The notes beneath the pieces are model-generated. The model was not told the origin of the DNA and ran no database searches. It saw only the letters and a program-made list of their open reading frames with translations. Positions 2,250 through 64,000 of a DNA stretch of 64,000 bases are shown here, piece by piece. How positions within the stretch are numbered: the stretch's first letter is position 1; every line of letters starts with the position of its first letter. Both the position numbers and the translations under genes were made by a program. This stretch comes from Myxococcales bacterium. Lineage in GTDB: Bacteria > Myxococcota > Myxococcia > Myxococcales > JAKAPL01. The stretch is taken from positions 1 through 64,000 of the forward strand of contig JAJXUD010000002.1 of the NCBI GenBank assembly GCA_021783235.1, written 5' to 3'.

Positions 2250-4774
<2,525 letters not shown>

Positions 4775-31236: not shown

Positions 31237-32841
31237 TTACATTTCGACGACGAGGTGCTCTGGGGCGGCGACGCCTCGCTTCACCTTGAGGAACCAGAGC
31301 AGCGGGAGGCTGAAGAGGAAGCAGAGCCCTTGGAGGACGAAGGCCCGCTCGAACGCGAGGACCGTCGACTGCTGAAGGGCGATGAAGTGGAACATCGCGA
31401 GCGCCGGGTTGGTCCCGGGGGCGGCGAGGCCGCGCATGGCGAGCCCGGCGCGAAGTTGCTGAAGACGGAACACGACCTCGGGCCTCGTCGGAACGAAGTG
31501 ACGGAGCAGGTCGCCGCGCGCCCGCACGGTGTCCCGCGAGAAGGCGGTCGCGAAGGCCGCGACGCCGATGCTGCCGCCCACCTGGCGGAGCAGGCTCGAG
31601 AGGCCGGTGGCGTCGGTCATCTCCTCGCGCCGGACGGTCGAGAGGCTCGCGGCCGTGAGCGGCACGAAGAGGCACGAGAAGCCGATCCCCTGAACGAGCA
31701 TCGGCAGGATGATGTTCGACTCGCCGCTCTGGAGCGTGAGGTGGCTCTCGAGGAAGGCGCCGATGCCGAAGAGGACGACCCCGATGGCCACGGTGACGCG
31801 GGGCGAGACGTGGTTGTAGAGCTTGCCGACGATGGGGGTGGCCACGAACATGATCGCGGAGCGCGGGAGAAGCGAGAGGCCGGACTGAGTCGCCGTGAAG
31901 CCGAGCATCTCCTGCATGAAGAGCGGCAAGAAGAACATGTTCGCCATCAGCACCGCGAACATGACCGATGAGATCAGCGTCCCCGCCGTGAAGGTCCGGT
32001 CGCGCAGGATCCGCAGGTTCACGGCCGGGACCTCGGCGGTCAGCTCGCGGACGACGAAGGCCGCGAGCGCGAAGACGGCGACCAGCGCGAGGACGCAGAT
32101 GAAGGGCGAATTGAACCAGTCGTCGCGGTCGCCCTGCTCGAGGAAGGTCTGCAGCGAGGCGAGGCCCATGCACATGAACGCGATGCCCTGCCAGTCGAAG
32201 TTCTTACGAGCGCGCTCAGCCCGCGCCCGCGCCGCCTCTTTCAGGTCGTCCGCCTCCGGCACGAAGGCGGTGACCATCACCAGCCCAAGGAGGCCGATGG
32301 GGATGTTCACGTAGAAGATCCAGGGCCAGCTGTAGGTATCGGTGAGCAGGCCGCCGAGCGTGGGGCCGAGGGCGGGTCCAATCATGACGGCCAGGCCGAA
32401 AATGGCCATCGCCATGCCCTGCTCCTCCCTCGGAAACGTCTGCTGGAGGATGGCCTGCTCCGTCGGCTGGAGGGCCCCGGCGCCGAAGCCCTGGATGCAG
32501 CGGAAGATGATGAGGGTCGGCAGGGTTCGCGCGAGGCCGCAAAGCGCGGAGCCGACGAGGAAGATGACGAGGCAGATGAGGTAGAGCCGCTTCTGGCCGA
32601 TGAAGGACCCGAGGAAGGCGGTCAGGGGCATGACGAGCACGGTCGCGACGATGTAGGCGGTCGAGATCCAGGTGATCTCCTCGATGGTCGCGCCCACCGT
32701 GCCGCGAATGTGCGGCAGCGCCACGTTGACGATGCTCGAATCGAGCGCTCCCATCAGCGTCCCGAAGGTGATGGAGACGGTGATGAGCCACTTGTTCGGC
32801 GCGGGGCGCGCCGGCCGTACGAGGGCGAGCTCGCCGTTCAT
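31237..32841 (-). CDS. DHA2-family MFS drug transporter, EmrB/QacA type
   Basis: The protein has 534 residues with about 14 membrane helices. Motif A region GSFIGQKRLYLICL and motif C region GPALGPTLGG mark the DHA2 drug:H+ antiporters. The helix-1 motif reads DSSIVNVALPHI. I place the start at 32841 because it gives the normal family N-terminus and overlaps the TetR stop in ATGA. It forms a tripartite pump with the EmrA-like and TolC-like genes downstream. The transporter across the divergent promoter is a close paralogue with many shared segments. Confidence 0.92.
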   Translation of the reverse strand: MNGELALVRPARPAPNKWLITVSITFGTLMGALDSSIVNVALPHIRGTVGATIEEITWISTAYIVATVLVMPLTAFLGSFIGQKRLYLICLVIFLVGSALCGLARTLPTLIIFRCIQGFGAGALQPTEQAILQQTFPREEQGMAMAIFGLAVMIGPALGPTLGGLLTDTYSWPWIFYVNIPIGLLGLVMVTAFVPEADDLKEAARARAERARKNFDWQGIAFMCMGLASLQTFLEQGDRDDWFNSPFICVLALVAVFALAAFVVRELTAEVPAVNLRILRDRTFTAGTLISSVMFAVLMANMFFLPLFMQEMLGFTATQSGLSLLPRSAIMFVATPIVGKLYNHVSPRVTVAIGVVLFGIGAFLESHLTLQSGESNIILPMLVQGIGFSCLFVPLTAASLSTVRREEMTDATGLSSLLRQVGGSIGVAAFATAFSRDTVRARGDLLRHFVPTRPEVVFRLQQLRAGLAMRGLAAPGTNPALAMFHFIALQQSTVLAFERAFVLQGLCFLFSLPLLWFLKVKRGVAAPEHLVVEM

Positions 32842-33479
32842 CGAGAGGCCCCGCGGAGGAAGAGCTCGGAGATCTGCCGCAGCCGGTCGGAGAGGGTGGG
32901 GGTCTTCGCGTCCAGGAGGGCGCGGATCGCCATCGTCCGCACCATGCCGACCAGCATGGCCCCGAGGAAGCCCGGCTCCTCGTCGCGCAGGACCCGCTCG
33001 CGCCGGCCAGTCTCGATCAGCCGCTCGGCCTGGCGGTAGATCTCGGAGAAGGGTCCGTCGCGATGCGCCCAGGCGATCCGGTTCGAGTGGGACGGAGAGC
33101 ATTCCGCCTGGATGAGGACGGAGTAGAGTGCGCGCTGGGCGTCGAAGAAGCCGAGGAGCTCGCGCAGGAAGACCTCGAGCCGCTCGCCAAAGGGTTGCCC
33201 CCGGCTCGTGCGCTCGATGGCCTTGAGGCGGTCTGCGAGCAGGCGGGTTCTCTCGTCCATGACCGCCGCGAGCAAGGCCTGTCGGTCCGCGAAGTAGTTG
33301 TAGACCGTGCCAACGGCAACGCCGGCCCTCGAGGCGATCTCCTCCATCTTCGCCGCCTGGAGACCGTCTTGGGCGAAGATGGCCGCGGCGGCGTCGAGAA
33401 TCTGATCCCGGACCAACCCCCGGACCTTCTCGCGCAGGCTCGCGTGCGCCTTGGCTCCTGGATGTGAATCTTGATTCAT
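32838..33479 (-). CDS. TetR/AcrR-family repressor of the efflux genes
   Basis: The protein has 213 residues. The N-terminal helix-turn-helix is typical: ILDAAAAIFAQDGLQAAKMEEIASRAGVAVGTVYNYFADRQALL. The remainder is the helical ligand-binding domain. The first five codons lie inside a 14-bp palindrome that also covers the -35 of the divergent transporter, which suggests autoregulation. No Shine-Dalgarno sequence precedes the ATG. A TTG further in, at the start of LVRDQILDAAAA, has a purine-rich stretch before it and is an alternative start. It is first in the pump operon, with a 4-base overlap to emrB. Confidence 0.88.
   Translation of the reverse strand: MNQDSHPGAKAHASLREKVRGLVRDQILDAAAAIFAQDGLQAAKMEEIASRAGVAVGTVYNYFADRQALLAAVMDERTRLLADRLKAIERTSRGQPFGERLEVFLRELLGFFDAQRALYSVLIQAECSPSHSNRIAWAHRDGPFSEIYRQAERLIETGRRERVLRDEEPGFLGAMLVGMVRTMAIRALLDAKTPTLSDRLRQISELFLRGASR
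33465..33478. promoter_or_regulatory. palindromic operator at the tetR start codon
   Basis: TGAATCTTGATTCA is a perfect inverted repeat with 6-bp arms and a 2-bp centre. It covers tetR codons 1-5 and most of the -35 box of the divergent transporter promoter. The position is ideal for repression of both genes by the TetR protein. Binding itself is inferred. Confidence 0.55.
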
Positions 33480-33498
33480 TTGGTGAACTCTGTATAAA
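33471..33498 (+). promoter_or_regulatory. promoter of the divergent DHA2 transporter
   Basis: TTGATT at 33471-33476 and TATAAA at 33493-33498 are 16 nt apart. The -10 ends 8 nt before the ATG at 33507, so the mRNA would start at or just before the start codon. Confidence 0.6.
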
Positions 33499-33519
33499 GC
33501 CGCTGCATGGCAGCGTCAA
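33491..33519 (-). promoter_or_regulatory. promoter of the tetR-emrB-emrA-tolC operon
   Basis: On the minus strand TTGACG (33514-33519) and TATACA (33491-33496) are 17 nt apart. The -35 lies within codons 3-5 of the divergent transporter and the -10 overlaps that gene's own -10. The two promoters therefore exclude each other. The tetR ATG follows the -10 by 11 nt. Confidence 0.55.
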
Positions 33520-35087
33520 GCACGACCGCTCCCCAGGTCAACAAGTGGACCGTCACCATCGCGGTGACGGTGGGCACCTTGATGGGCGCCATCGACTCGA
33601 GCATCGTCAACGTGGCGCTGCCCCACATGCGCGGTACGCTGGGCGCGAGCATTCAGGAGATCACCTGGGTCTCCACGGGCTACATCGTTGCGATGGTCAT
33701 CGTGATGCCGCTCGTCGCGTGGCTTGGGACGGTCTTCGGCCGCAAGCGCGTCTATCTCTTCTGCCTGGGCCTCTTCCTCGTGGGCTCGTTCTTTTGCGGC
33801 GCCGCCCGGTCGCTGTCGACGCTCGTGATCTTCCGGATCGTTCAGGGCCTCGGCGCGGGCGCCCTGCAGCCCACCGAGCAGGCGATCCTCCGCGAGACCT
33901 TCCCCCTCGAGGAGCAGGGGATGGCGATGGGGCTCTACGGGCTCGCCGTCATGATTGGTCCTGCGCTCGGGCCGACCCTGGGCGGCTACATCGTCGACAA
34001 CTTCGAGTGGCCCTGGATCTTCTACATCAACATCCCCATCGGCATCATCGGAATCCTCATGGTGCAGCGCTTCATCCACGATCCCGAGCATGCGAAGGCC
34101 CGCGGCGGACCGGCGAGGATCGACTTCGTCGGAATCCTCTTCCTCGTGGCGGGGCTCGGGCTCCTACAGACCGTCCTCGAGAAGGGCAACGAGAACGATT
34201 GGTTTCAGAGCGCCTTCATCGCGGCGATGGCGCTCGCGGCGGTCGTGTCGCTCGCCATCTTCGTGGTTCAGGAGCTGACGTCCGAGCAGCCGGCCGTCGA
34301 TCTGCGCATCCTGAAGAACCTCTCGTTCACCTCGGGCACGCTCGTGGGGGCCATCCTGGGCGCCGCGCTCTTCGGGAGCATGTTCCTCCTGCCGCTCTTC
34401 ATGCAGGAGTTGCTCGGCTACGACGCGACCCAATCCGGGCTCGCGTTGATGCCGCGCGCCCTCGCGATGATCGTGATGATGCCGCTCGCCGGCATGCTCT
34501 ACAATCGGCTCGGGCACTACCTCCAGGTTCCGCTCGGCCTCGGCCTCTCCGCCCTCGCGACCTTCCTCATGTCGCACTTCACGCTCCAGTCGGGAACCTG
34601 GCAGATCCTCCTGCCGCAGATCCTACAGGGAATCGGCTTCAGCCTCATGTTCGTCTCTCTCTCCACGGTGACGCTCTCCACCATCCGCCGCGAGCAGATG
34701 ACCAACGCCACCGGCCTCTACAACCTGATCCGACAGCTCGGTGGCAGCTTCGGCGTCGCGATCTTCGCGACCTTCCTCGAGAATCGCCGCGAGCTGGCGC
34801 ACAACTCGATCATCGCGCACCTCGTGCCGACCCGCGGCGCCGTACAGCAGCGGCTCGCCATGCTCTCGAGCGGCCTCGGTTCGCGGGCCGGAGTCCACGG
34901 CGGCACGGCGCATCGGATGGGGCTCGGGGCGCTGGCGTTCGAGGTCTACCGGCAGTCGGCGACGATGGGCTACGAGCAGACCTTCCTCTGGGTGGCGCTG
35001 CTCATCGGCGGCTGCATCCCGCTCGTCTTCCTCATTCGGAAGGGGAAGGGGCAGAGGAAGCTCGGACCGGAAGTGCTGGCCGAGTAG
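33507..35087 (+). CDS. second DHA2-family MFS transporter
   Basis: The protein has 526 residues with about 14 helices. It shares the DHA2 signatures of its neighbour: DSSIVNVALPHM, GTVFGRKRVYLFCLG, a GALQPTEQAIL segment and GPALGPTLGGYIVD. It reads away from the tetR operon across only 27 bp and has no adaptor or channel gene of its own. It could use the EmrA and TolC-like proteins encoded opposite, or work alone. It has no ribosome-binding site; the promoter -10 is 8 nt before the ATG. The convergent lipoprotein gene ends 2 nt after its stop. Confidence 0.9.
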   Translation: MAASSTTAPQVNKWTVTIAVTVGTLMGAIDSSIVNVALPHMRGTLGASIQEITWVSTGYIVAMVIVMPLVAWLGTVFGRKRVYLFCLGLFLVGSFFCGAARSLSTLVIFRIVQGLGAGALQPTEQAILRETFPLEEQGMAMGLYGLAVMIGPALGPTLGGYIVDNFEWPWIFYINIPIGIIGILMVQRFIHDPEHAKARGGPARIDFVGILFLVAGLGLLQTVLEKGNENDWFQSAFIAAMALAAVVSLAIFVVQELTSEQPAVDLRILKNLSFTSGTLVGAILGAALFGSMFLLPLFMQELLGYDATQSGLALMPRALAMIVMMPLAGMLYNRLGHYLQVPLGLGLSALATFLMSHFTLQSGTWQILLPQILQGIGFSLMFVSLSTVTLSTIRREQMTNATGLYNLIRQLGGSFGVAIFATFLENRRELAHNSIIAHLVPTRGAVQQRLAMLSSGLGSRAGVHGGTAHRMGLGALAFEVYRQSATMGYEQTFLWVALLIGGCIPLVFLIRKGKGQRKLGPEVLAE

Positions 35088-51392: not shown

Positions 51393-51439
51393 TGGAGCGG
51401 GTGAAGGGGATCGAACCCTCGACATCAACCTTGGCAAGG
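51393..51439 (-). other. attachment site: displaced 3' half of tRNA-Gly(GCC)
   Basis: On the minus strand the 47 bp read from the anticodon arm (CCTTGCCAAGG, anticodon GCC), through a T-arm with GGTTCGATCCC, to an acceptor stem ending in CTCCA. The sequence before the anticodon arm is not a D-arm or 5' acceptor strand, so this is not a functional tRNA. Identity stops exactly at the anticodon stem, as expected for a tyrosine-integrase crossover within a tRNA gene. Confidence 0.85.
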
Positions 51440-52493: not shown

Positions 52494-53498
52494 ATGACCC
52501 CGCCCCCCGCGAAGCTCGAAGCCGCCTTCGCCCGCCTGCCCCCCGGCGAAGCCCTCACCGTCCGCACCGAGGCCCCCGCCGGGCTGTCCGTGACCCCCGC
52601 CGCCGTCGAACGGGCCCGCGAGTTCGCCCGGGCAGCGCGCTCGGAGGCCACCCGGGGCGCCTACCGCTCGGACTGGGCGCACTTCACCGCCTGGTGCGAG
52701 GCTCACGGAGGCACGGCGCTGCCGGCCGGGGCCGCCACCGTCGCGCTCTACCTCGGTGAGCTGGCCGACCAGGGGTTCAAGGTGTCCACCATCGAGCGGC
52801 GCCTCGCGGCCATCGCAGAAGCCCACAAGGCCGCCGGCCTGCCCTCGCCGCGGTCGGACGCGAACGTCCGCGCCGTCGTCAAGGGCATCCGCCGCAAGCT
52901 GGGCGTGGCTCAGAAGCAGGCCCGGCCCCTTCTGCCGGCCGAGCTGCGGGCCGTGGTGGGCACGCTGCCCGAGGGGCCGCAGGGAACTCGGGACCGGGCG
53001 TTGCTCTTGCTCGGCTTCGCAGGGGCGTTCCGCCGGTCCGAGTTGGCCAGCTTGAACGTCGGGGATCTCGAGTTCGGGGACGACGGACTCACCGTGACGC
53101 TCCGGCGCTCGAAGACCGACCAGGAGGGCCGGGGGCGCAAGGTGGGCGTGCCCTTCGGCTCGGACAAGGCGACCTGCCCGGTTCGCGCCGTCCGTGCCTG
53201 GCTGACCAGCCTGGGCGAGGGGGCACGGGGTCCGCTCTTCCGCAGGGTCGACCGCTGGGGCAACCTCGGGGGCCGCATGACGGGGCAGGCCGTCTGGCGC
53301 GTCGTCCGCCGCGTCGCTGGGGACGAGTTCTCGGGGCACTCGCTGCGGGCCGGGCTCGCCACGGCCGCCGCGAAGGCCGGCAAGTCGGCCACCGTGATCA
53401 TGAAGCAAACCGGGCACAAGTCGCTCGCCATGGTGTCGCGCTACGTCCGGGACGCTTCGCTCTTCGAGGACAACGCGGCGAGCGGGATCGGGCTGTAG
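52494..53498 (+). CDS. tyrosine recombinase/phage integrase family protein
   Basis: The protein has 334 residues. An N-terminal helical core-binding domain (about 40-140; SEATRGAYRSDWAHFTAWCEAHGG) precedes the catalytic domain. Active-site residues are visible: Arg181 in FRRSELASL, a Lys in RSKTDQ, His282 and Arg285 in HSLRAG, His in TGHKS, and Tyr317 in SRYVRDA. It lacks the N-terminal arm-binding domain of the terminal integrase. It may be a resolvase, an inversion enzyme or the remnant of a second element. It is the best-expressed gene of the element judging by its promoter. Confidence 0.88.
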   Translation: MTPPPAKLEAAFARLPPGEALTVRTEAPAGLSVTPAAVERAREFARAARSEATRGAYRSDWAHFTAWCEAHGGTALPAGAATVALYLGELADQGFKVSTIERRLAAIAEAHKAAGLPSPRSDANVRAVVKGIRRKLGVAQKQARPLLPAELRAVVGTLPEGPQGTRDRALLLLGFAGAFRRSELASLNVGDLEFGDDGLTVTLRRSKTDQEGRGRKVGVPFGSDKATCPVRAVRAWLTSLGEGARGPLFRRVDRWGNLGGRMTGQAVWRVVRRVAGDEFSGHSLRAGLATAAAKAGKSATVIMKQTGHKSLAMVSRYVRDASLFEDNAASGIGL

Positions 53499-53543: not shown

Positions 53544-53810
53544 CTAGCGGGACGATGGCCGCCCCCGCCGGGCTCTCATGCTGCTGGGCCGCCTGACCAA
53601 CTCGGCCAGGGGGACGCGGTACAGGTTCGCAAACACCACGAGAGATTCGAGCCCAAGGTTCTGAGCCCCGCCTTCGACGCTCTGAACGTACCGCGTGCTG
53701 ACGCCGAGTTGCTCTGCCGCTTGCGCCTGAGTGAGTCCGCGTTCCCCGCGCAGCTCTGCGATGCGCCGCCCGACGTGCCGCTGAACGGTCTCCGGGTCGA
53801 GAGGCTGCAT
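53544..53810 (-). CDS. XRE-family transcriptional regulator
   Basis: The protein has 88 residues. The HTH domain is IAELRGERGLTQAQAAEQLGVSTRYVQSVEGG with a conserved C-terminal helix (LESLVVFANLYRVPLAELV). Size and its place divergent from the restriction-modification gene resemble controller (C) proteins of restriction-modification systems. It could also be a general element repressor. The 85-bp gap to the RM gene should hold its operator, but I see no clean palindrome there. Confidence 0.75.
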   Translation of the reverse strand: MQPLDPETVQRHVGRRIAELRGERGLTQAQAAEQLGVSTRYVQSVEGGAQNLGLESLVVFANLYRVPLAELVRRPSSMRARRGRPSSR

Positions 53811-57282: not shown

Positions 57283-57451
57283 CCTGCCGCGCAGCCGGTT
57301 TCCTGACGCTCCTCGACTGGCGAGGTAGAGTGCGCTGGGGCGCATGGCCCCTGGCCGTCGCGCTGCCCGAAGGCCCCCCATCCTCGGGCCGCGCGCGGCC
57401 GTCTCTCCCGCGCCGCTCGCGCGTGTGACCAAAGCCTGCTACACGGGCGCC

Positions 57452-58360
57452 ATGGCAGAGATCACGATCGAACGGAGCGGGATGCTCCAGCGGGAGCTGT
57501 TCGCGCTCCTCCTCGAACATCCCGAGGGCATGCGAGCGAAGGCCGCCGTCGCCGCGCTGGCGAGCCGCGTTCGCCTGACGCCGTACGAGGCCGGCAACTA
57601 CGAGAGCGGCGGACGGCGCTTCGACAAGATCATCCGGTTCGCGACGGTCGGGCTGGCCAAGGCTGGGTGGCTTACGAAGAGCGTCGGGGTCTGGACCGTG
57701 ACGGACGCCGGCAAGGAAGCCCTCGCAAGATTCACGACGCCCGAAGCGTTCTACCGCGAGGCTGCTCGGCTCTACAGCGCGTGGAAGTCGGCGGGGCTGG
57801 AAGGCGACGCGCCGACCACCGGGACCGTCGCCATCCCCGACGCCGAGGCCGCGGGCGGCGAACGCACGGCAACGATCACGTTCGAGCAGGCCGAGGAGCA
57901 GGCGTCCGAGGAGGCGACCGTTTTCCTCGCCAATCGGCCCCCGTACGAGGTCCAGGCCCTCGCGGCGGAGCTGCTTCGCGCGATGGGCTACTTCGTGACA
58001 TGGGAGGCGCCGAAGGGAAAGGACGGCGGAATCGACATCATCGCGTTCCGCGACCCGCTCGGCGCGCAGCCGCCCCGGATCAAGGTGCAGGTCAAGCGAA
58101 CGGCCGAGGCGGTCGCCGTCGAGGGGCTCCGCTCGTTCCTGGCCTTGATCGGGGACGGCGACATCGGGCTGTTCGTTAGCACGGGCGGATTCACCCGCGA
58201 CGCGCGCGAGGAGGCGCGCCGGCAAGAGAGCCGCCAGGTGACGCTCGTTGACGCGCCAGAGTTCTACGGGCTTTGGGCCCGGCACTATGAGAAGCTGAGC
58301 GAGCGGGCGAAGCGCACCTTCCCCCTGCGGCCGATCTGGTTTCTCGCGCCCGAAGAGTGA
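57452..58360 (+). CDS. Mrr-type restriction endonuclease
   Basis: The protein has 302 residues. A winged-helix N-terminal domain (about 10-95, MLQRELFALLLEHPEGM ... VWTVTDAGKEAL) is joined by an acidic linker to an Mrr catalytic domain with PPYEVQALAAELLRAMGYFV. The active site reads D195 (GGIDIIAF) and Q213-V-K215, the Mrr-type variant of PD-(D/E)xK. Mrr enzymes usually cleave methylated DNA. It starts 170 nt after the RM gene, so it may have its own promoter. How it coexists with the neighbouring methyltransferase is an open point. Confidence 0.85.
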   Translation: MAEITIERSGMLQRELFALLLEHPEGMRAKAAVAALASRVRLTPYEAGNYESGGRRFDKIIRFATVGLAKAGWLTKSVGVWTVTDAGKEALARFTTPEAFYREAARLYSAWKSAGLEGDAPTTGTVAIPDAEAAGGERTATITFEQAEEQASEEATVFLANRPPYEVQALAAELLRAMGYFVTWEAPKGKDGGIDIIAFRDPLGAQPPRIKVQVKRTAEAVAVEGLRSFLALIGDGDIGLFVSTGGFTRDAREEARRQESRQVTLVDAPEFYGLWARHYEKLSERAKRTFPLRPIWFLAPEE

Positions 58361-59764: not shown

Positions 59765-60202
59765 ATGCGACAGAGCCGAACCAATCCGTTTGTCCGCGGT
59801 GAACCCCTCGCGTCGGACCTCCGCGAAGCGCTGGCCGCCCTGGTCGCGCACGCTGGCGAGCGAGCCGCCACGAGCCGACTCGGCATCCCGCGCGCGACAC
59901 TTGCGCGGGCCCTCGCTGGCTTGGGGTTGCGCCGTGGAACTGCGGTGCTCATCGGGGAGCGGCTCGCCCACCTGCCGCCCCCCGGAGCGCACCGGAGGCC
60001 GGCCGTGACCCGACGCCGCGGCGAGAACGCGCACGAGCTGATAGCCGAGGCCGAGCGATTGTACCGCGCGGGGGTGGCGCCGCGTGAGGCGCGGCACCGC
60101 CTCGTGGCGGCCAATACCGCCGCGCCGTCGCCGATCCCACGTCACGAGGTGGGCGAGCTGGTCGCCATGATCTGGGGGCTGCCGCTACGGAGAAGCCGGT
60201 GA
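59765..60202 (+). CDS. small element protein with HTH-like segment
   Basis: The protein has 145 residues. The segment AGERAATSRLGIPRATLARALAGLGLRRGTAVL has helix-turn-helix character. The C-terminal part is basic and Ala/Arg-rich. I do not recognise the family. The stop overlaps the GTG of the DUF3987 gene (GTGA), so it belongs to the replication operon and could be an accessory or copy-control factor. No ribosome-binding site stands out before the ATG. Confidence 0.55.
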   Translation: MRQSRTNPFVRGEPLASDLREALAALVAHAGERAATSRLGIPRATLARALAGLGLRRGTAVLIGERLAHLPPPGAHRRPAVTRRRGENAHELIAEAERLYRAGVAPREARHRLVAANTAAPSPIPRHEVGELVAMIWGLPLRRSR

Positions 60203-61581
60203 CGGCAACGCACGCCGCGGACCCTTACCGCGCTTATGGCGCTTACCGCGCACCCTCTCCTCCTGTCGCTTCCGAGCCTAACCCACCGGAACTTGGATCC
60301 GAGGCCTTTCATGGGCTGGCCGGCCAGGTAGTCGGAACGATCAGCCCAGAGACCGAGGCTGACCCGGTTGCCCTCCTCGCTCACCTCCTCGTCATGTTCG
60401 GGGACTGCGCCGGGCGAGCGCCGCACGCGAAGGTCGGCGCGGCGCAGCACACCGCCAACCTGTTCGCCGTCATGGTGGGGACCTCCTCGAAGGGCAGGAA
60501 GGGAACGGCGGCCGAGGCAATCAAGCCGCTGTTCCAGACCGTCGACTCCGACTGGACGCGCGATCGTCTGCAAGGCGGGCTCTCGAGCGGCGAGGGGCTG
60601 ATCTGGGCAGTCCGCGACCCCATCAGCAAGAAGGAGCCGATCCGGGAAGGCAAGGGTCGGTCCAAGAAGATCGTCGGCTACCAAGACCTGATGGTTGACG
60701 GTGGGGTGGCCGACAAGCGGTTGCTGTTGCTGGAGACCGAGTTCGCGGGCGTTCTCCGAGTTCTCGACCGGGACGGCAACACTTTGTCAGCGATCGTCCG
60801 GCAGGCATGGGACACGGGAACGCTTCGAACGCTGACGAAGAATTCCCCTGCCGTCGCCACGGACGCCCACATCGCGATCGTCGGTCACATCACCAAGGAA
60901 GAGCTACTCCGCTACCTCGACCGAACCGAGAGCGCCAACGGCTTTGGAAACCGCTTTCTGTGGTTTCTCGTCAAGCGCTCGAAGCTGTTGCCCGAGGGCG
61001 GCGATCTCAGTGACGCCAAGTTGGCCGACCTTCGCCGCGACCTTCAAGCGGCGGTCGACTTCTCCAGAGGAGTTGGCGAGCTGCGGCGCGACCCGACGGC
61101 ACGGGCAAGGTGGGCCACCATCTACGAGGAGCTGGCGGCAGAGCGGGCGGGGCTTGCGGGGGCGCTCACAAGCCGTGCCGAGGCCCAGGTGCTCCGTTTA
61201 TCGGTTCTCTATGCGCTCCTCGATCGCTCCCGCGAGATCGCGGTGGCCCACCTCGACGCGGCCCTTGCCGTCTGGCGGTACGCCGAGGACTCGGTGTGCG
61301 CGATCTTCGGGGACTCGCTCGGCGATCCCGTCGCGGATGAGATTCTCCGGTCGCTACACGCTGCCGCCCTCGGCCTAACGAGGGACGAGATCAGGGAACT
61401 GTTCGCCCGCCACAAGTCGTCCGAGCAGATCGGACGTGCCCTCGACGCCCTCAGTCGGGCGGGGATGGCCCGATGCACTGCTGAAAAGACCCGCGGGAGG
61501 CCAGCCGAGCGGTGGATTGCAGTCCCACAGGCTGCGCGGAAAGCGCGGTATGTCCCCCGCGAGCCTGGCGAGGAAGGGTGA
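60199..61581 (+). CDS. DUF3987-type replication protein (helicase-like)
   Basis: The protein has 460 residues with a GTG start coupled to the previous gene. After a variable N-terminus the core reads AHLLVMFGDCAGRAPHAKVG, LFAVMVGTSSKGRKGTA (a degenerate P-loop-like stretch near 93-103), LLLLETEFAGVLRVLDRDGNTLS and a C-terminal winged-helix-like segment. These fit the DUF3987 group found beside Prim-Pol genes in plasmids and phages, thought to act as a helicase or loader. Both ends of the gene carry copies of a 9-bp DNA repeat. The downstream Prim-Pol gene is translationally coupled. Confidence 0.75.
   Translation: MTATHAADPYRAYGAYRAPSPPVASEPNPPELGSEAFHGLAGQVVGTISPETEADPVALLAHLLVMFGDCAGRAPHAKVGAAQHTANLFAVMVGTSSKGRKGTAAEAIKPLFQTVDSDWTRDRLQGGLSSGEGLIWAVRDPISKKEPIREGKGRSKKIVGYQDLMVDGGVADKRLLLLETEFAGVLRVLDRDGNTLSAIVRQAWDTGTLRTLTKNSPAVATDAHIAIVGHITKEELLRYLDRTESANGFGNRFLWFLVKRSKLLPEGGDLSDAKLADLRRDLQAAVDFSRGVGELRRDPTARARWATIYEELAAERAGLAGALTSRAEAQVLRLSVLYALLDRSREIAVAHLDAALAVWRYAEDSVCAIFGDSLGDPVADEILRSLHAAALGLTRDEIRELFARHKSSEQIGRALDALSRAGMARCTAEKTRGRPAERWIAVPQAARKARYVPREPGEEG
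60224..60250 (-). repeat. iteron cluster A, three 9-bp units
   Basis: Units CTTACCGCG (60224), CTTATGGCG (60233) and CTTACCGCG (60242) stand in tandem inside the first codons of the DUF3987 gene. They are the reverse orientation of the CGCGGTAAG consensus found in clusters B and C. Confidence 0.75.
61535..61552 (+). repeat. iteron cluster B, two 9-bp units
   Basis: Units CGCGGAAAG (61535) and CGCGGTATG (61544) stand in tandem in the last part of the DUF3987 gene. They are in the opposite orientation to cluster A. Confidence 0.6.
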
Positions 61582-61586
61582 TCGCC

Positions 61587-62450
61587 ATGGAGACACCCTG
61601 CGCGGTAAGCGCGAAAAGCGCGGTAAGGGGGGTGGGGACATCGGAAGGGCTCGGCGCCGCCGCGCTCGACCTCACCCGCCGCGGCGCCCGGGTCTTCCCC
61701 TGCCAGCCACGAGGCAAGGTCCCGTTGGCGACCCACGGATGCCGTGACGCCAGCACGGACGAGGCCACGATCCGCGCCTGGTGGGCCCGGTGGCCCAACG
61801 CCAACGTCGGGCTCGCCACGGGGAACGGGCTGCTCGTTCTCGACGTGGACCCGCGCCACGGCGGGGACGAGAGCCTCGCCGAGCTGGCCGAGCTGCCGCC
61901 GACGCGCGAGGCCCTGACCGGCGGGGGCGGCAGGCACTTGTTCTACCGGGGCGAGGCGCGTTGCTCTGCCGGCCGCCTCGGGCCGGGCCTCGACGTGCGC
62001 GGGGCCGGGGGCTACGTGGTCGCGCCGCCGAGCGTCCACCCCTCGGGCTCGCTCTACCGCTGGCACCCGAGCCTCGGCCTGGCCCACCCCGTTGCCGACG
62101 CCCCCGACTGGCTTCTCGAACGGCTCGCAGACCGCCCCAGGGCCGCCGTGGCGCGTTCGCCGCTCACGGTGCCCACGGACCTCGGCCGGTGCGTCCGGCG
62201 GGCCAGGGGGTGGCTCCAGTGCGTTCCAGGTGCCGTCTCCGGGCAGGGCGGCCACAACGCCACATTCAGGGCCGCCCTCGGCCTGGTGCGCGGCTTCGAC
62301 CTGCCTGAAGACGTGGCGCTGGCGCTTCTCGCCGAGTGGAATGAACGGTGCGAGCCGCCGTGGTCCGAGCGCGAGCTGCGGCACAAGGTCGAAAGCGCCA
62401 CCCGCGCGAGCGCAGAGCGCGGCTACCTGCTCACCCGAGGGGCCGCGTGA
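61587..62450 (+). CDS. bifunctional DNA primase/polymerase (Prim-Pol)
   Basis: The protein has 287 residues with the ATG at 61587; a GTG at 61578 overlapping the DUF3987 stop is an alternative. The archaeo-eukaryotic primase fold is marked by LDLTRRGARVFPCQPRGKVPL, the metal-binding D86-x-D88 in LVLDVDPRHGG, and GGGGRHLFYRG (nucleotide-binding SGGxH-like motif). PGLDVRGAGGYVVAPPS is also family-typical. The C-terminus carries a helical accessory domain. Together with the DUF3987 protein it could prime and extend replication of the excised element. Confidence 0.88.
   Translation: METPCAVSAKSAVRGVGTSEGLGAAALDLTRRGARVFPCQPRGKVPLATHGCRDASTDEATIRAWWARWPNANVGLATGNGLLVLDVDPRHGGDESLAELAELPPTREALTGGGGRHLFYRGEARCSAGRLGPGLDVRGAGGYVVAPPSVHPSGSLYRWHPSLGLAHPVADAPDWLLERLADRPRAAVARSPLTVPTDLGRCVRRARGWLQCVPGAVSGQGGHNATFRAALGLVRGFDLPEDVALALLAEWNERCEPPWSERELRHKVESATRASAERGYLLTRGAA
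61601..61627 (+). repeat. iteron cluster C, three 9-bp units
   Basis: Units CGCGGTAAG (61601), CGCGAAAAG (61610) and CGCGGTAAG (61619) stand in tandem within the first codons of the Prim-Pol gene. Together with cluster A this makes an almost perfect inverted copy 1.35 kb apart. Confidence 0.75.
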
Positions 62451-62969: not shown

Positions 62970-64000
62970 GTGGCGTCCGCCTACCAGAAACGAGGGACCT
63001 ACTACGTCGGCTTCACCGACGGGAGCGGCAAGCGTCGCAACGTCGCGACCGCTGCCCGCACGCTGACCGAGGCCCGTCGGATCGCGGCCGAGCTGGAGCG
63101 GAAGGCCGAGCGCCAGCGGCTCGGGCTCGACCCCCTCCCTGACGACAGCGTGACCCTCGGGGGCGCCTGCGAAGCGTGGCTCGCCGGCATGCGCGCCCGG
63201 CCGGCTTTCGAGACGAGCGAGGCGTACATCCGGCTGCACGTCCGAGAGACGGACCTCGCGCGAACGCCCCTCGGCCGCCTGACGCGCGCCCACGTCGAGA
63301 ACTTCCTCGACGCGGAGGCCGCCCGGTTCAAGCCGGAGACCGTCAACCGGCTCCGGGGCATCCTGTGCGCGGCCATCAACCGCGCCTGTCGCACGGGCGA
63401 ATGGTCCGGCTCGAATGTCGTCGCCGAGGTGCCCAAGCGAAAGGTTCCCCGCCGGCCGCCGGCCTACCTGCGAAGCGAGGAGGTGGCTCCGCTCCTCGCC
63501 GCGCTCGCGCCCCGCTTCCGCAACGTGTTCGCCACGGCGATCTTCACCGGGCTTCGCCCCTCCGAGCTGCGGGCACTTCGCAAGCAGGACGTGGACCTCC
63601 CGCGCCGCTGGCTGGTCGTCTCCCGTTCGGGCTCCCGGAACGTGACGAAGGGCAACCGCGTTGACGGGCTCCCGATCGCCGAGGAGCTGGTGCCCTTCCT
63701 CGAAGCTGCGCTCGCCGGCTCGCCCGGCGAGCTGGTCTTCCCCCGCCCCGACGGGACGATGCTTCCGAGGGGAACGCCCTTCTCGGCGATCCTCCGGCGG
63801 GCCATGGGGCGCGCTGGCGTCGCGGTGACGGGCTTCCGGCACGCCTGCCGCCGCCACGGGTGCGGGCATGCCGAGACAACCCCCGACGCCGGGCTCCGGC
63901 GCTGCCCGGTGGACGGGCGCAAGCTCTGGCCCACCCCCGAGGTGCGGCCGCTCCGCTTCTACGACGCCACCCGACACACCACTGCGAGCCTGCTGCTACA
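62970..64000 (+). CDS. tyrosine integrase, truncated by window end, with inserted Cys-rich segment
   Basis: The visible part has 343 residues with a GTG start and GAGGTGA just upstream. An N-terminal arm-binding domain (YQKRGTYYVGFTDGSGKRR) and a SAM-like core domain (about 60-150) precede the catalytic domain, with Arg196 in TGLRPSELRALR and the RHTTASLL box at the right edge. The catalytic Tyr lies beyond the window. Between these boxes an extra segment carries Cys293, Cys298, His300 and Cys312 (HACRRHGCGH ... RCPVDG), a zinc-ribbon-like insert with Asp in place of one expected Cys. This is the most likely enzyme for integration into tRNA-Gly. Confidence 0.92.
   Translation, partial: MASAYQKRGTYYVGFTDGSGKRRNVATAARTLTEARRIAAELERKAERQRLGLDPLPDDSVTLGGACEAWLAGMRARPAFETSEAYIRLHVRETDLARTPLGRLTRAHVENFLDAEAARFKPETVNRLRGILCAAINRACRTGEWSGSNVVAEVPKRKVPRRPPAYLRSEEVAPLLAALAPRFRNVFATAIFTGLRPSELRALRKQDVDLPRRWLVVSRSGSRNVTKGNRVDGLPIAEELVPFLEAALAGSPGELVFPRPDGTMLPRGTPFSAILRRAMGRAGVAVTGFRHACRRHGCGHAETTPDAGLRRCPVDGRKLWPTPEVRPLRFYDATRHTTASLLL

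Follow-up and report, generated by a model that had tools for sequence, protein, structure and literature searches.

The 9-base repeats around a DUF3987-type helicase gene of a Myxococcales bacterium are very probably binding sites for the tail of the helicase itself, as judged from comparison of sequences rather than from experiment. We regard it as likely that the clusters they form are the iterons of the replication origin of an integrative element, read by the DUF3987 helicase, with both binding and origin activity being inferred. Relatives in many bacterial phyla share the arrangement but have a different repeat. A single residue in the tail predicts a single base of the repeat in almost all cases, and the origin would therefore be self-recognizing and readable from sequence. 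With somewhat less assurance, we also propose that a widespread MCM-like helicase family reads its own origin by a code of residues 405, 399, and 396, and that specificity changes by swapping the winged-helix end of the protein along with the iterons. Throughout, “the window” refers to the whole stretch of DNA analyzed, which is 64,000 nucleotides long and begins at the first position of its contig.

The element, its helicase, and its iteron clusters

The repeats belong to a complete integrative element of ~12.9 kb that lies in a tRNA-Gly gene, is bounded by 46-bp direct repeats, and extends from position 51394 of the window to position 64368 of the contig. The features of the element that are discussed below are the following:

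51394..51439, no strand: left attachment repeat of 46 bp that exactly matches the 3' part of the tRNA-Gly gene (contig 64323-64368)
53896-57282: MmeI-like type IIG restriction-modification enzyme, element cargo
57344-58360: Mrr-type nuclease, element cargo
60199..61581, plus strand: DUF3987-type MCM-like helicase of 460 aa (phrog_5311, helicase)
60225..60251, minus strand: iteron cluster A, three inverted 9-bp units (GCGCGGTAA GCGCCATAA GCGCGGTAA) at the 5' end of the DUF3987 gene
61327..61521, plus strand: C-terminal winged-helix domain, the proposed iteron reader (about residues 377-441; from predicted secondary structure and covariation)
61384..61395, plus strand: codons Asp396 to Arg399, which covary with iteron bases 5 and 4
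61411..61413, plus strand: codon of His405, which covaries with iteron base 1 (His with G, Asn with A)
61534..61551, plus strand: iteron cluster B, two degenerate forward units (GCGCGGAAA GCGCGGTAT) within the 3' end of the DUF3987 gene
61589..62450, plus strand: Prim-Pol primase with PriCT-1 (PF09250, E=8.5e-47); the start is uncertain (GTG 61512 or ATG 61589)
61600..61626, plus strand: iteron cluster C, three forward units (GCGCGGTAA GCGCGAAAA GCGCGGTAA) directly past the DUF3987 stop codon
62637..62966, plus strand: HTH_17 or excisionase-like protein of the AlpA type (PF12728, phrog_66)
62970..64000, plus strand: tyrosine integrase (PF00589, phrog_1), whose open frame continues to contig position 64385 (L114)

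A second tyrosine recombinase is encoded close to the left end of the element (52494-53498), and a small HTH gene that adjoins it (53544-53810) matches defense-associated HTH models. No virion genes were found among the genes scanned, in a scan that was not dedicated to the element.

The Pfam model for DUF3987 (PF13148) did not report the window protein even at an E-value of 1, so that it falls below the curated cut-off; three relatives (L003, L005, and L006) score above it. The AlphaFold model of the window helicase is confident (mean pLDDT 89.4) and predicts an MCM-like AAA+ core followed by a C-terminal winged helix, a combination that it shares with archaeal and eukaryotic MCM helicases. 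The top Foldseek matches were MCM helicases (E 4e-8, probability 1.00, TM-scores of 0.30-0.44), and the best 50 fold matches were all MCM proteins (no direct comparison with SaPI Rep was made), while the helicase profile gave weak sequence matches to MCM chains (E 0.01-0.08). Because the TM-scores are low, we speak of a relation to MCM-like AAA+ helicases rather than of membership among them. The winged helices of MCM proteins are not known to select origins through base reading.

The initial annotation had described eight repeat units in three clusters, all of which are present where it placed them, but its register was off by one base. In that register the exact 9-mer CGCGGTAAG is found in only four of the eight units (60224, 60242, 61601, and 61619), the units of cluster B each have one mismatch to it, and the middle units of the other two clusters are more diverged (CGCCATAAG in A and CGCGAAAAG in C). 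Comparison with relatives fixes the unit as RCGNNNNAA, which makes GCGCGGTAA the window unit in the conserved register, and cluster C therefore spans 61600-61626 and cluster A 60225-60251 on the minus strand. The further description of A and C as nearly perfect inverted copies is borne out by a 31-nt inverted repeat with 94% complementarity, and no 31-nt inverted pair with two or fewer mismatches occurred in 60 first-order Markov sequences of 64 kb. The other such pairs of the window, among those listed, fall at ~31.5-34.8 kb, inside long diverged inverted repeats; this region (31546-34772) contains two nested pairs of diverged inverted repeats of 419 and 524 nt that are 70-75% complementary. 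With one mismatch allowed, the 9-mer is not over-represented in the window (16 found vs. 19.5 expected). As a single 9-mer occurs at chance frequency, the signal consists of the exact head-to-tail clustering at 9 bp and of the inverted pair. The 27-nt array has no second occurrence across the 4.6-Mb genome, and neither has the 31-nt inverted repeat.

Arrays in related loci

We examined 98 loci with relatives of the DUF3987 protein, drawn from several phyla and from phage contigs. A first scan of the protein against one genome per species returned nine loci, from organisms that bear the names Desulfobacterota, Bryobacteraceae, Planctomycetota, Omnitrophota, and Nitrospirae, and at nearly all of them 9-bp repeats could be seen by eye just past the helicase gene, each locus with a sequence of its own. 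Profile searches of more genomes then led to a set of 55 loci, including the window. No relatives were found in viral contigs searched with the window protein alone; searching with the alignment instead yielded 44 loci, and collections of plasmid and phage records gave one and six matches, respectively, all of them distant. A terminase profile was matched in 14 of the 24 helicase-bearing viral contigs, and in several relatives an integrase is encoded no farther than about 3 kb from the helicase, indicating that both phages and integrative elements use the module. The contig name of L003 records a coverage of 1818.75, which could mean a multicopy element (the coverage of the other contigs is unknown).

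Across these loci the 9-bp spacing and the form RCGNNNNAA are commonly kept, but the 9-mer of the window itself is absent, and the variable bases of the unit differ from element to element. Autocorrelation at the 3' end of the gene in the 55 loci gave a mean best score of 13.65 of 18 at lag 9, compared with 9.7-10.4 at other lags and 11.2 at lag 18, a harmonic of 9. Scores of at least 16 were reached by 14 of the 55 loci at lag 9, by two at lag 18, and by none at the remaining lags. At the gene 3' end, arrays of RCGNNNNAA have a density of 2.24 per kb, compared with 0.11 per kb in the rest of the loci upstream and 0.014 per kb in shuffled sequence. Recognizable arrays are absent from many more distant relatives. 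In five large genomes of the order to which the window belongs (L013-L017), degenerate arrays are encoded within the 3' end of a related helicase gene.

Three units make up 60 of 85 arrays. The usual layout in relatives, found at the 3' end of the gene, is a forward triple, about 18 bp (the commonest gap), and an inverted triple, with the forward array usually first and often overlapping the stop codon. Cluster C occupies the position that is kept in most relatives. In the window, A and C are 1.35 kb apart with the DUF3987 gene between them, and since both clusters lie at the gene 3' end in most relatives, we take this split around the gene as a variant. Arrays that match the 3' units are also found at the gene 5' end in seven loci (the window, L033, L051, L057, L080, L083, and L095). 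One genome, G999, has three helicases with three different iterons (L059, L062, and L063).

These comparisons bear on several earlier proposals. The repeats had been placed at the boundaries of the helicase and Prim-Pol genes; the tie to the helicase stands, but that to Prim-Pol does not, as the type of primase varies among relatives. The partner is a Prim-Pol in the window, L006, L007, and L009, an AEP-TOTE primase in L003, and a protein with Toprim or CHC2 zinc-finger domains in L005, L008, and L011. Selection at the level of DNA, rather than of protein, had been argued from reading phase and orientation, and it is supported by the recurrence of the repeats beside the DUF3987 gene across phyla, with spacing fixed at 9 bp while the sequence changes. 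Absence of the repeats from similar DUF3987/Prim-Pol modules would have refuted the reading as iterons; we checked for this and did not find it to be so. Their recurrence beside the DUF3987 gene supports the view of them as iterons of a replication module, with the status of origin itself remaining an inference.

Residue-base covariation in the winged helix

For the covariation analysis, a unit was recognized by CG at positions 2-3 and AA at positions 8-9, with position 1 left out of the call, and a relaxed rule admitted a few more arrays whose tails differed. Base 1 of the repeat was predicted far better by residue 405, which lies in the C-terminal winged helix, than by any other of the 401 alignment columns. 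In the first set of 34 loci, the mutual information of this column equaled the full label entropy (z 13.4), and its excess was 0.98, while that of the next column was 0.40. Base G was accompanied by 18 His and one Lys at residue 405, base A by 11 Asn and three gaps in which Asn had been shifted by the alignment, and base C by Ser. In a blind strict test on phage and viral contigs found later, nine His-G and five Asn-A pairs were obtained, so that 14 of 14 fit (Fisher p 5e-4). With the relaxed arrays added, the total comes to 34 His-G, 23 Asn-A, two Arg-G, one Lys-G, and one Ser-C, and neither the strict phage test nor this total contains a case of His with A or Asn with G. Beyond the strict sets, some arrays were called by visual inspection, with knowledge of the rule.

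The other array calls of the phage test set either have no bearing on His versus Asn or are unconvincing: L109 has Arg with G; in L095, with base G, residue 405 is aligned as Glu with His adjoining; L096 has His at 405, but its array is not a repeat; L103 has two unlike units; and L100 has another core (about ACCGGTGTA). The 9-bp repeats of L100 lie near the stop codon, beside a winged helix that differs in sequence, and are perhaps a further branch of the code.

In a combined set of 50 loci, residue 405 reached a z of 22 for base 1, and the top columns for bases 4 and 5 were 399 and 396, respectively. Thr396 with Ser399 goes with AA at bases 4-5, Asn or Asp396 with Arg399 goes with CG, Thr396 with Arg399 goes mostly with AC or CC, and Tyr399 goes with CA or TA. 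The window fits this rule, combining D396, R399, and H405 with GCGCG, and the unit of L055 (N396, R399, N405) is ACGCGGTAA, the window unit with A at base 1. In the predicted structure, residue 405 lies in the turn preceding helix 408-420, and residues 396 and 399 lie in helix 395-401.

We also considered these traits on a tree built from the helicase core, with the winged helix excluded. On this tree residue 405 and base 1 each change 13 times and are paired in all sampled independent pairs, though strongly supported branches force only three of the 13 His/Asn switches. His or Asn and base 1 likewise go together among near neighbors. A natural switch is seen within genome G999, where L059 and L063 are about 94-100% identical in DNA over some 450 bases; divergence sets in about 150 bases ahead of the stop codon and continues through the winged helix, with the iterons switching in step with residue 405 (GCGCCATAA to ACGAACTAA, His to Asn). 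L063 consists of the 3' half of the gene only and is joined upstream of position 1501 (in match orientation) to unrelated sequence, in which the translated frame reads like the start of a transposase. For this reason we interpret L063 as a past switch and not as a working second origin. L059 has a degenerate second copy of the helicase gene's 3' end and iterons farther downstream (2629-3250), as though a duplication had taken in both the gene end and the origin.

Because of this residue-base covariation, we consider the DUF3987 protein the likely reader of the iterons. Its C-terminal domain would set iteron specificity, a suggestion that has only the covariation and the natural switch behind it, and no binding assay. 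We think it improbable that a separate small protein does the binding.

A putative self-recognizing origin

We propose that each winged helix docks on one 9-bp unit, as the covariation supports, and that base 1 is read by residue 405, base 4 by residue 399, and base 5 by residue 396. Facing arrays of three units would then provide seats for the subunits of a single hexamer or of two, which may melt the DNA and present single strands to Prim-Pol. A pair of triples, with its six units, would match one hexamer, or else two hexamers, the number proposed for SaPI Rep and Cch2, and an array at the 5' end probably also lets the helicase regulate its own expression. What the analysis shows directly is the conservation of the 9-bp arrays, the covariation, the MCM-like fold of the model, and the integration in tRNA-Gly; binding, hexamer seating, melting, and origin activity are inferred here, without binding or replication data.

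Origins of SaPIs have an AT-rich unwinding segment between or beside the iterons. We found no clear AT-rich unwinding segment at the arrays, where the spacers have 35% AT as against 40% in the gene, and the sequence directly downstream has an AT excess of only 4-7%. This missing segment is the main weakness of the origin claim. It also favors a different account, which we think improbable without being negligible, in which the winged helix binds the arrays as transcription operators, for autorepression or control of the replication operon, and no origin is involved. The matching 5' arrays of the seven loci and the position of cluster C between the helicase and primase genes would suit such operators. 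The commonest site of the arrays is nonetheless the 3' end of the gene, where loci with a fused primase-helicase have no second half to control, and the arrangement matches the origins of SaPI and SCC elements.

That another protein of the element binds the iterons, be it the product of the 59765 ORF, the AlpA-like protein, or Prim-Pol, seems very unlikely to us. Neighboring genes do encode small DNA-binding proteins, but the residues that track the iteron bases sit in the winged helix of the DUF3987 protein, the iterons keep to the helicase whichever type of primase accompanies it, and neither Pfam nor PHROG gave a match for the 59765 protein. We give hardly any credence to a role of the inverted clusters as RNA or single-strand hairpins (a terminator or attenuator): the nearby forward and inverted triples of most relatives could pair, but the clusters of the window are 1.35 kb apart, and hairpins leave no role for the exact 9-bp period or for the covariation. 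Equally hard to credit is that the 31-nt inverted repeat delimits a gene cassette that is mobile or invertible, for although the window has the repeats on either side of the DUF3987 gene, both clusters lie on one side of it in most relatives, and the ends of the element are the 46-bp tRNA-Gly repeats. Chance or protein-level repetition in a GC-rich genome, to which the expected frequency of the 9-mer with one mismatch might point, is refuted by the lag-9 and array statistics of the 55 loci and by the covariation, and many arrays lie outside coding sequence or across its end.

Reading the arrays as iterons of the DUF3987 helicase invites comparison with systems that are already characterized. 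In phage P4, the alpha protein combines primase and helicase and uses its C-terminal winged helix to bind iterons at two places in the element (ori and crr); it differs in its iteron sequence and in being a single fused protein. The helicases SaPI Rep and SCC Cch2 have a C-terminal domain that recognizes iterons directly downstream of their own genes (PMC7581432). For SCCmec Cch2, three short iterons in the downstream intergenic region are bound by the isolated C-terminal domain, helicase activity is iteron-dependent, and large multimers consistent with hexamers were reported (PMC7581432). The window system resembles SaPI Rep/ori in combining a putative initiator helicase with a C-terminal DNA-binding domain, downstream iterons, a partner primase, and an integrated element (PMC7581432). 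It differs from SaPI in its 9-bp unit of the form RCGNNNNAA, its face-to-face triples, its DUF3987-type, MCM-like helicase, the lack of an AT-rich spacer, and a residue-base code that is visible from sequence; Cch2 differs in its 5-nt AAGTG iterons and is discussed with the D5 helicase family (PMC7581432). By this analogy, our best reading is that the DUF3987 system would work like SaPI Rep/ori and SCC Cch2, with origin activity inferred. Membership of the DUF3987 helicase in the families of SaPI Rep/Cch2 or of the PrimPol-PV1 helicases has not been shown.

PrimPol-PV1 elements (PrimQH and related families) are integrated, often in tRNA genes, and carry a primase along with DUF3987 and other putative helicases, and a C-terminal winged helix that was suggested to recognize the origin (PMC5862659). 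Iterons or recognition residues are not described in the text of that account, and unlike in those elements, the primase of the window is encoded by a separate gene. The DUF3987 system would realize the suggestion made there (PMC5862659). The passages covered of the literature on DUF3987 nowhere name iterons, and in the portion of the literature that could be searched here we met with no account of the 9-bp form, the breadth of the system, or the residue-base code.

With these results, DUF3987, a protein family of unknown function, gains a function that can be tested, and candidate replication origins of many uncharacterized phages and integrative elements can be located from sequence alone. 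Different codes may define compatibility groups, which, if so, would explain the three iteron types in genome G999. Covariation seldom allows the specificity of a replication initiator to be decoded, as it does here, and, if true, the origin specificity of a widespread MCM-like helicase family would be readable from sequence.
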